36,443 bases of DNA. Origin: Paracoccaceae bacterium. Its GTDB lineage: Bacteria > Pseudomonadota > Alphaproteobacteria > Rhodobacterales > Rhodobacteraceae. A model generated the notes under the pieces. The model did no database searches. It saw only the letters and a program-made list of their open reading frames with translations, and was not told where the DNA came from. Positions 34,199 to 36,443 of this stretch are shown in pieces. How positions within the stretch are numbered: the stretch's first letter is position 1; the number at the start of each line of letters is the position of its first letter. The stretch lies in contig JAJUJF010000009.1 in the NCBI GenBank assembly GCA_029265455.1, positions 1 through 36,443 on the forward strand, written 5' to 3'. Made by a program: the position numbers and the translations under genes.

Positions 34199-35187
34199 GC
34201 CAGGGCCTCCAGCGCCAGTGCCGGCATCCCGAGCGTGCGCGGATCGACCGGACCCGCCGGCACCTCCGTCCGTCGCGCCATACGCAGCCGCGCCGACCGC
34301 GCCCGCGGATTGGCCGCGACCTCCTCCGCATCCGCATCGACGGCCTTGCGGTTGATCAGCGTGAACCGCGGCGCCTCCCGCTCCGGCGCCGGCAGATGCC
34401 GGCTGCCGCCCGGCGCCATGCCCGAGCGGAGCTGGAGGAACCGCTTCACGATCCGGTCCTCGAGCGAATGGAACGTCACCACCGCGAGCGCGCCGCCCGG
34501 CGCCAGCACCCGCTCCGCCGCCGCGAGTCCGCGCGCAAGCTCGCCGAGTTCGTCGTTCACCGCGATCCGCAACGCCTGGAAGCTCCGCGTCGCCGGGTGG
34601 ACCTGCCCCGATTTCTGCCGTGGCAGCACGCCCTCGATGATCTGCGCGAGGCCGAGCGTCGTGCTGATCGGCACCTGCGTGCGGGCGCGCACGATCGCCC
34701 GCGCGATCCGCCGCGCCGCCCGCTCCTCGCCGTAGAAATGCAGGATGTCGGCAAGCGCCGCCTCCGGCAGCCGGTTGACGAGATCGGCGGCCGAGGGGCC
34801 AGCCTGCTCCATCCGCATGTCGAGCGGCCCGTCCCGCAGGAAGGAGAAGCCCCGTTCCGCCTCGTCGAGCTGCATCGAGGAGACGCCGATGTCGAGCACC
34901 ACCCCCGCCGCCTGCTCGACACCCGCCTCCGCCGCGATACGGTCGAGCGCACCGAACCGGCCCTCGACGACAGTGAGCTGTTCCTCGTCCCAGTCCTGCG
35001 CCGCACGGATCACGTCCGGGTCGCGGTCGATCCCGATCACCCGCTCGGCGCCGGCCGCGATGAGCGCCCGCGCATAGCCGCCCGCGCCGAGAGTGCCGTC
35101 GACCCACACGCCGGTGACCGGCTCCACCGCGCGCAGCAGCGGCCCGATCAGCACCGGAACATGCGGCGGCGCCACCACCATCATCAT
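34195..35187 (-). CDS. rsmH: 16S rRNA (cytosine-1402-N4)-methyltransferase RsmH
   Basis: SAM-dependent enzyme that methylates N4 of C1402 in 16S rRNA, formerly called MraW. The 330-residue protein has [15 protein letters not shown], the SAM motif [14 protein letters not shown] (30-38 core), GIDRDPDVI and later [11 protein letters not shown] and [12 protein letters not shown], all typical of the family. Three ATGs in a row open the gene; the first overlaps the mraZ stop as ATGA. Confidence 0.97.
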
Positions 35188-35690
35188 GACCTCGAGAAGG
35201 TATCCAGCAGCGCGAGAAGGTCGCCGTCCTCGCCCAGCTCCTCGTCGATCGCCTCCTCCAGCCTGGCCTGATCGGCCCGGTAGGCGTCGTTCTCCCAGAT
35301 CTCGAAATGCTCGCCCATGCCGGCGAAGACGGCCTCGCCGGTGATGCCGATCAGCTCCCGCAGCCGCTGGCTAAGGACGATCCGGCCGGTGTCGTCCACC
35401 GTCGCCTCGACCGACTGGGTGTGGAAGATCCGGTGGAAGGCATCGCGCAGCTTGGTGAACCGCTCCATCGACGCGATCTTCCGGTCGATCCTCTCCATTT
35501 CCGCCATCGAGAAGCACAGGAGGCACTTCTTCTTCTTCACCCAGCCGTAGACGATGACGAACTGCGGCAGCAGGCCTTCCTTCCAGTCAGGGTCGTTCTT
35601 CTCGAGGGCTCGACGGAACGAGGCGGGGATCGAGACCCGGCCCTTGCCATCGACCTTGTGGGTCGACTCGCCCCTGAACACCCTGGCCAA
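35184..35690 (-). CDS. mraZ: Transcriptional regulator MraZ
   Basis: DNA-binding AbrB/MazE-fold protein that represses the dcw cluster from its own promoter in enterobacteria. The 168-residue protein has two SpoVT-AbrB-like repeats, [14 protein letters not shown] (14-27) and [14 protein letters not shown] (99-112). The reading frame has no ATG at the right place; the best start is TTG at 35690, with AGGAG ten bases upstream. A GTG three codons later is the alternative. Four (T/C)GGG repeats with 10-base spacing, the pattern MraZ binds, lie about 245 bases upstream, which supports autoregulation. The central insert [13 protein letters not shown] differs from the homologues I recall. Confidence 0.94.
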
Positions 35691-35718
35691 CTCCGGCCTA
35701 CTCCTGTCCTCACACGCG

Positions 35719-35756
35719 AACGGCGGGCCGTGCTGCCTCGGGCACGACCCGCCGTT
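35719..35756 (-). promoter_or_regulatory. Strong stem-loop in the mraZ leader
   Basis: AACGGCGGG-C-CGTGC pairs with GCACG-A-CCCGCCGTT around an 8-base loop: 14 paired bases with one mismatch. It lies 28 bases upstream of the mraZ start, inside the presumed 5' leader. No T-run follows on either strand, so if it ends transcription it is not a standard intrinsic terminator; it could equally protect or expose an RNA processing site. Confidence 0.7.
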
Positions 35757-35920
35757 ACGTCCCTCGTGGGCCCGCCCGACAACGACTTGTTCTATGGACT
35801 GCTCGGCCTGTCCGTGTCGGGTCTCGTTCTGTATGGAAGTTCAGCGGGCCTGTATGAAACCTGCCTGAGTTCGACTTGGCGAGTCTGGTGCCCGTCTTAG
35901 CCGACCGCTTCCCTTCTCTG
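35719..35920 (-). ncRNA. Candidate UpsM-like small RNA from the dcw leader
   Basis: In Rhodobacter sphaeroides the dcw cluster has an unusually long 5' leader that gives rise to the abundant small RNA UpsM of about 200 nt. Here the candidate promoter would start transcription near 35920, and the strong stem-loop ends at 35719, giving an RNA of about 200 nt in the same position and orientation. I could not compare the primary sequence with UpsM, so this rests on position, size and the 3' stem-loop only. Confidence 0.4.
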
Positions 35921-35925
35921 CGAAG

Positions 35926-35954
35926 GGTGTACCATGGGAGGCCATGGGAAACAA
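35926..35954 (-). promoter_or_regulatory. Candidate dcw cluster promoter
   Basis: On the minus strand TTGTTT (35954-35949) and TACACC (35931-35926) are 17 bases apart and overlap two of the four MraZ-box repeats. The consensus match is modest; the position within the box array is the main support. Confidence 0.35.
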
Positions 35955-35969
35955 CGGGATTCTGTGGGC
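35935..35969. promoter_or_regulatory. MraZ-box array (operator of the dcw cluster)
   Basis: TGGGA, TGGGA, CGGGA and TGGGC occur at 35935, 35945, 35955 and 35965, exactly ten bases apart. E. coli MraZ binds TGGGN repeats separated by five bases, which is the same 10-base period. The array lies upstream of mraZ and overlaps the candidate promoter, as expected for autorepression. Confidence 0.75.
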
Positions 35970-36204: not shown

Positions 36205-36233
36205 GGTGGGGCGGTTTCCCATGAACCGCCACC
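36205..36233 (-). terminator. Hairpin just downstream of rnpB
   Basis: GGCGGTT and AACCGCC form a 7-bp stem around a 7-base loop, extended by GGT/ACC across a two-base bulge. It starts about 17 bases after the presumed rnpB 3' end. No T-run follows directly, so it may end the transcript with help or act as a 3' processing barrier. Confidence 0.35.
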
Positions 36234-36250
36234 TCCCGTTCACGTCGATG

Positions 36251-36443
36251 CGCGCGGACGGCCTGTAAGCCGGATTCTGTGCCGGCCCTTCCGGAACCGG
36301 CGGCGGCCATTCATCTGGGCCCGCCCTCGCGGACGGGCTCGTGCAGCCAACCCGGATCGCCTCGGCTGGGAGAAGAGCCTGGGAGCCGGAGCTCCCGCGC
36401 GATCCCTATTCGGCCTTGCTCCTGGCGGGGCTTGCCGTGCCGC
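36251..36443 (-). ncRNA. rnpB: RNase P RNA, 3' half (truncated by window end)
   Basis: Catalytic RNA of RNase P, which matures tRNA 5' ends. On the minus strand four blocks match the bacterial type A RNA as I recall it from E. coli, in the right order: GAGCAAGGCCGAATAGGG, GGGTTGGCTGCACGAGCC, CAGATGAATGG and ACAGAATCCGGCTTAC. The 5' half lies beyond the window. The 3' end is placed near 36251 from the expected P1 helix and could be off by a few bases. It precedes the dcw cluster in the same orientation. Confidence 0.95.

Follow-up and report, generated by a model that had tools for sequence, protein, structure and literature searches.

A conserved UpsM-type leader in front of mraZ and its probable partner sRNA, StsR

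The mraZ locus and its leader

The window, by which we mean the whole 36,443-nt stretch of DNA that was analyzed, ends in two minus-strand genes, mraZ and rnpB, with an intergenic gap of ~560 bases from the end of rnpB to the mraZ start.

35184..35690, minus strand: mraZ coding sequence, the first dcw gene, starting with TTG at 35690 (open reading frame and whole-genome self-match)
35701..35705, minus strand: Shine-Dalgarno sequence AGGAG, mostly unpaired in the predicted fold
36250..36443, minus strand: 3' part of rnpB (RNase P RNA; RF00010, 88.8 bits), the upstream neighbor, cut by the window end

MraZ relatives are present in 11/11 genomes of the window's genus and in 60 of 61 genomes of its family, which, judging from the named relatives, would be Rhodobacteraceae. 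Directly after rnpB lies an inverted repeat, GGCGGTTCATGGGAAACCGCC (36210-36230), with no T-run behind it.

The leader is located 5' of mraZ and on the same strand, the place from which Rhodobacter sphaeroides produces UpsM (RSs0682), the 5' leader sRNA of its dcw operon (Weber et al. 2016, PMC5089854). In that species the dcw leader measures 268 nt and the terminated sRNA 206 nt; read-through past the UpsM terminator is ~1 in 100, and RNase E generates a 130-nt fragment. UpsM comprises a hardly conserved region R1, a long hairpin R2, a short hairpin R3 and the terminator R4 (PMC5089854). A second R. sphaeroides sRNA, the 72-nt StsR, binds UpsM and the dcw leader, and this pairing promotes RNase E cleavage and lowers dcw expression in stationary phase and under stress (PMC8307010, PMC8625941, PMC11354728).

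An earlier note on this DNA had proposed an UpsM-like leader in front of mraZ and a covariance-model search as a way of checking it. Rfam 15 contains no UpsM family matching the window, and we built a covariance model of the leader (model R1) in its place. This model covers both the window (102.8 bits; 35711-35865) and the UpsM of Cereibacter johrii (135.5 bits), a close relative that stands in for R. sphaeroides in the homology comparison. Model R1 found matches in 119 of 121 order genomes, every match lying within the window's family, and a class-wide sample gave the same picture (5/5 family members; 0/284 genomes outside the family). G487 and G497, order genomes without a leader-model match, have strong StsR matches (97 and 82 bits). 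Together with the R2-R3-R4 order and the covariation of R4 described below, the model match upholds the proposal: the stretch before mraZ is an UpsM orthologue, a conserved UpsM-type leader of the dcw operon.

Hairpin R4 is maintained as an RNA structure

The structured elements of the leader, in the order in which they lie upstream of mraZ, are as follows.

35710..35718, minus strand: U-poor tail CGCGTGTGA, directly after R4
35719..35756, minus strand: terminator-type hairpin R4, 15 bp with the 8-nt loop CCGAGGCA
35761..35770, minus strand: R3, a small CCC...GGG hairpin (alignment and fold)
35775..35821, minus strand: hairpin R2, with arms CCCGACA (35821-35815) and TGTCGGG (35781-35775)

The arms of R4, read on the minus strand as AACGGCGGGTCGTGC (35756-35742) and GCACGGCCCGCCGTT (35733-35719), form 15 pairs with a single G-U among them, and exactly 28 bases (35718-35691) separate the stem from the TTG at 35690, as the earlier note had given for its strong stem-loop. 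With its flanks (48 nt), R4 folds at -35.3 kcal/mol, whereas shuffled versions average -20.3 (z -5.0) and in no case out of 200 folded as well. We compared the mraZ loci of 11 genomes of the genus and of other genera of the family, resulting in an alignment of 34 leaders. A hairpin of like build occupies the equivalent place in nearly all fetched mraZ loci, with differing stem sequences, and RNAalifold, run unguided on the alignment, returned two helices, R2 and R4. In the structure composed of these two helices, 97.1% of cells across the 34 leaders are paired and 11 pairs show double changes; within R4, 9 of the 14 modeled pairs carry double compensatory changes among the 34 relatives. The covariation score of 0.425 (0.221 in shuffles) was not reached by any of 500 shuffles, and shifting the pair partners by 1-3 columns reduced pairing to 32-47%. 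Together, the paired cells, the double changes and the shuffle and sliding controls demonstrate that R4 is kept as an RNA structure, and the covariation across related genomes that had been named as a check is present.

These results bear directly on the notion of a chance hairpin, or a terminator of rnpB, with mraZ transcribed from a separate promoter close by, as happens in E. coli. While rnpB does lie upstream on the same strand and hairpins form easily in GC-rich DNA, ~490 nt separate rnpB from R4, and the low folding energy, the covariation and the family-wide conservation all argue against such an origin. Likewise, we detected no sigma-70-like promoter close to mraZ, albeit in a weak scan that missed the predicted upstream promoter too. 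We regard this explanation as largely refuted and its remaining probability as very small.

The U-tract is the weaker half of the terminator. The 11-nt tail following R4, GTTCGCGTGTG, contains 4 T, which places it in the lowest group among the 34 relatives by plain T count; this count replaced an extended-stem terminator score, which was dropped because pairing of the U-tract with upstream purines confounded it. Given the U-poor tail, termination at R4 may be weak in the window's species. However, the U-tract of C. johrii UpsM is likewise interrupted (CTTTCGTTTC), yet its near relative R. sphaeroides stops ~99% of transcripts at this terminator (PMC5089854), so a weak U-tract is compatible with termination.

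The remainder of the leader shows a less pronounced fold. The R2 stem is conserved and its interior has diverged in the window's genus; the fold of the whole 235-nt leader was no better than that of shuffles (z -1.4), and the 204-nt RNA folded alone has a competing fold. R4 stayed intact when the leader was cofolded with StsR, and the Shine-Dalgarno sequence is not sequestered. We considered a leader that descends from UpsM and whose R4 is no longer a good terminator, serving mainly to protect the RNA or to shape mraZ translation, with control exerted through StsR pairing and RNase E. Such a state would account for a U-tract among the poorest of the 34 relatives, for a distance from R4 to the start codon of 28 nt rather than the ~36-90 nt seen in most relatives outside the genus, and for the undisturbed R4 in the StsR cofold. 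The compensatory changes that keep R4 intact, the freely accessible Shine-Dalgarno sequence and the C. johrii precedent speak against it, and overall we consider it unlikely.

Site A and the StsR-like partner sRNA

The most conserved part of the leader in the 34-leader alignment is not the hairpin but an upstream segment, site A, whose 18-nt core GGCAGGTTTCATACAGGC (35865-35848) is near-invariant and lies ~90 nt upstream of R4.

35848..35866, minus strand: site A, AGGCAGGTTTCATACAGGC, perfect 19-nt complement of a StsR-like sRNA encoded in the same genome
35798..35805, minus strand: site B, CGAGCAGT, located in the loop of R2; complement of the StsR 5' end ACUGCUCG and putative contact site
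Contig C89 of the same genome (G000:C89:3357-3436; L041:1457-1535), minus strand: StsR-like sRNA gene, 103.4 bits

The genome that contains the window carries a second copy of site A on contig C89, in a gap flanked by an SDR dehydrogenase-like gene and an opposite-strand open reading frame. The view of this copy as a chance 12-mer did not hold up: a 14-mer of site A occurs in at least two copies in 57 of 101 family genomes (hand count from a table), compared to two matches of the reversed control pattern in all 101 genomes together. Reading 30 multi-copy loci revealed that almost every copy located away from mraZ lies antisense to an sRNA that ends in a terminator. This sRNA consists of (C)ACTGCTCGATAGGTTTCTTGCCTGTATGAAACCTGCCTCAA followed by a covarying terminator with a clean U-run, is preceded by a conserved promoter (CTTGG...TATAA), and folds (z -4.9) into the terminator and a hairpin whose loop displays UUGCCUGUAU; its single-stranded 5' end hardly varies, being unchanged in nearly all copies. 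G013, G051, G053 and G103 each contain the 14-nt motif in three exact copies, of which the third may represent a further target or an additional StsR.

A covariance model of the sRNA (model R2, distinct from hairpin R2), also built here, found it in 28 of 30 chosen genomes, and in 17 of 19 genomes selected mostly because their leaders were weak or missing. Matches to this model outside the family (~30 bits) were set aside as terminator resemblance. When leader and sRNA were searched against Rfam, no StsR family was present and no family scored above threshold for the sRNA, the weak suhB, Leu_leader and Hrs13 matches reflecting terminator resemblance only.

Grutzner et al. (2021) reportedly described StsR as a 72-nt sRNA targeting UpsM. 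Transcription dependent on RpoHI/RpoHII is a further trait of StsR. The sRNA found here is separately encoded, has a predicted length of 72-76 nt, ends in an intrinsic terminator and is complementary to the UpsM leader; its C. johrii copy would be 72 nt long if it begins with ACTGC and ends at the fourth U (hand count), the length published for StsR (PMC8307010). Based on this agreement in length and on the UpsM complementarity, we take the sRNA to be StsR. The C89 sRNA is thus very probably StsR, an assignment by size and partner rather than by a sequence match to published StsR.

In the window's genome, leader and sRNA are able to form 19 contiguous base pairs, a perfect complementarity that, at the level of sequence, corresponds to the pairing of UpsM with StsR, and the best duplex between the whole sRNA and the whole leader RNA lies beyond all 500 shuffles. 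Hfq binding and stress-dependent RNase E cleavage are traits of UpsM; Hfq is encoded in the same genome as the window, and a dependence on Hfq and RNase E would be expected here as well. By hand count, the RNase E cut that shortens R. sphaeroides UpsM from 206 to 130 nt (nucleotide 76/77) maps just 3' of site A in C. johrii.

Some genomes have site A changes that StsR does not compensate, and the argument for pairing is thus one from conservation and perfect complementarity, not from trans-covariation. A candidate case of trans-covariation in G039 was rejected, since the divergent StsR scored -20.9 with its own leader as against -27.7 for canonical StsR, indicating no compensation. In the congener G010 (L011) there is no StsR match, site A is broken and R4 is intact with a strong U-tract, a single case that is suggestive of site A decay accompanying StsR loss. 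The idea derived from it, that site A decays only upon StsR loss, was weakened by genus g343 (G450, G452, G457, G471; L258-L261), in which StsR is kept and the middle of site A is changed, with GGCAGG and ACAGGC retained at its two ends.

In 28 of the 34 leaders, the R2 loop contains CGAGCAG, to which the unpaired StsR 5' end, ACUGCUCG, is complementary; in the window this match extends to the 8 nt of site B. Since these sequences are related and thus not independent, a second contact between the StsR 5' end and site B is a possible, hypothetical one. The same 5' end could alternatively act on the terminator, with ACUGCUCGAU pairing with the 5' arm and loop of R4 and opening it, which would make StsR an antiterminator. 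Outside the window's genus, 9-10 of 10 positions of the R4 arm and loop pair in most species when G-U is counted, and the StsR 5' end is single-stranded and near-constant across copies. However, these matches again come from related, non-independent sequences, the window's genus lacks the CAGUG loop and pairs at 8 of 10 positions, and the window's R4 remains intact in the cofold with StsR. Furthermore, StsR was reported to lower dcw mRNA (PMC11354728). We therefore regard antitermination as improbable.

A more elaborate scheme would combine both contacts into a family-wide, two-site UpsM-StsR switch whose second contact has moved. The StsR 5' end would invade the terminator in most of the family; the window's genus would have lost the terminator-loop site and lengthened the R2-loop contact; in the window's species the U-tract would have decayed, shifting control from termination to cleavage, and the MraZ repeats described below would add a second feedback loop. 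Taken as a whole, this scheme is speculative, and we think it has little chance of being correct in full.

Predicted promoter region, proposed circuit and known systems

Upstream of the leader, the alignment points to a promoter and to a set of repeats.

35715..35918, minus strand: predicted UpsM-like RNA, ~204 nt (ends by analogy with C. johrii)
35926..35931, minus strand: predicted -10 element TACACC (alignment)
35949..35954, minus strand: predicted -35 element TTGTTT (alignment; 17-nt spacer)
35935..35969, minus strand: four MraZ-box-like repeats with a 10-nt period, overlapping the -35 element and the spacer

In C. johrii, the position 268 nt before mraZ lies a few bases downstream of a conserved -10 element, CATCCC, and nucleotide 206 of the leader lands in the U-tract behind R4; the published ends are thus in keeping with the conserved promoter. 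By analogy, transcription in the window would start near 35918, giving an untranslated region of ~228 nt and an RNA of ~204 nt. The leader length of about 230 bases in the earlier note agrees with this prediction, and the end it had set at 35920 is near the predicted 5' end.

The repeats read TGGGA ggcca TGGGA aacaa CGGGA ttctg TGGGC on the plus strand, and we presume their likeness to MraZ boxes from the E. coli MraZ consensus, which we take to be of the TGGGA type. On the leader strand, the window has four TCCCA-type repeats and most relatives have two or more, such that a putative TGGGN-type operator is present as far as its sequence goes. E. coli MraZ is an autorepressor and binds to MraZ boxes that lie upstream of the dcw cluster (PMC8475190). 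The location of the repeats at the UpsM promoter suggests a feedback in which MraZ would bind there and act on UpsM and dcw jointly.

We propose that a promoter with the MraZ-box-like repeats in its spacer starts transcription ~228 nt before mraZ, and that the leader RNA folds as R2, R3 and R4. Part of the polymerases would stop at R4 and free the ~204-nt sRNA, and only the remainder would read into mraZ and the division genes; partial termination at R4 would thereby set the basal share of transcripts entering mraZ. The C89 sRNA would pair with site A over 19 nt, and perhaps with site B by its 5' end, the sRNA loop GCCUGUAU and the CCUGCC downstream of it being the likely first contacts. We assign a probability of about 0.82 to this joint reading of an UpsM-type leader with partial R4 termination, a StsR-like partner sRNA and a MraZ-box-like promoter.

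By extension, RNA-level control of entry into the division operon probably operates in essentially the whole family and not in R. sphaeroides alone, with leader and partner sRNA mostly retained together. Covariance models are now available for two RNAs without a matching Rfam family, and the complementarity, the cleavage position beside site A and the MraZ-like repeats provide testable predictions that join division, stress and MraZ feedback. What is new is a further UpsM member whose partner sRNA could be located within the same genome; the UpsM/StsR circuit was already known, and it is this known control circuit that is well preserved here, not a new kind of system.

Compared to R. sphaeroides UpsM, the window's leader shares the position before mraZ, the R2-R3-R4 order, the predicted promoter position, a GGCA-containing terminator loop and site A (the last as read in C. 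johrii), with a predicted RNA of ~204 vs. 206 nt and a leader of ~228 vs. 268 nt. It differs in having no ACAUCCCCCCAGGUGG element in the interior of R2, an R4 loop of CCGAGGCA rather than of the CAGUGGCAGC type, an R4 nearer to mraZ and a poorer U-tract. The C89 sRNA resembles StsR in being separately encoded, ~72-76 nt long, equipped with its own promoter and an intrinsic terminator, and perfectly complementary to the UpsM leader, and a StsR-like sRNA is present in both C. johrii and the window's genome. The E. coli mraZ1p leader likewise has MraZ-box-like repeats at the mraZ promoter; however, its untranslated region is 38 nt with no terminator (PMC5089854), whereas the boxes in the window overlap the UpsM promoter, ~245-280 nt ahead of mraZ. 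In the Listeria riboswitch leaders SreA and SreB, a leader is also ended early and has a proposed role in trans, but the window's leader, with no evident ligand-binding aptamer, is not a SAM riboswitch.
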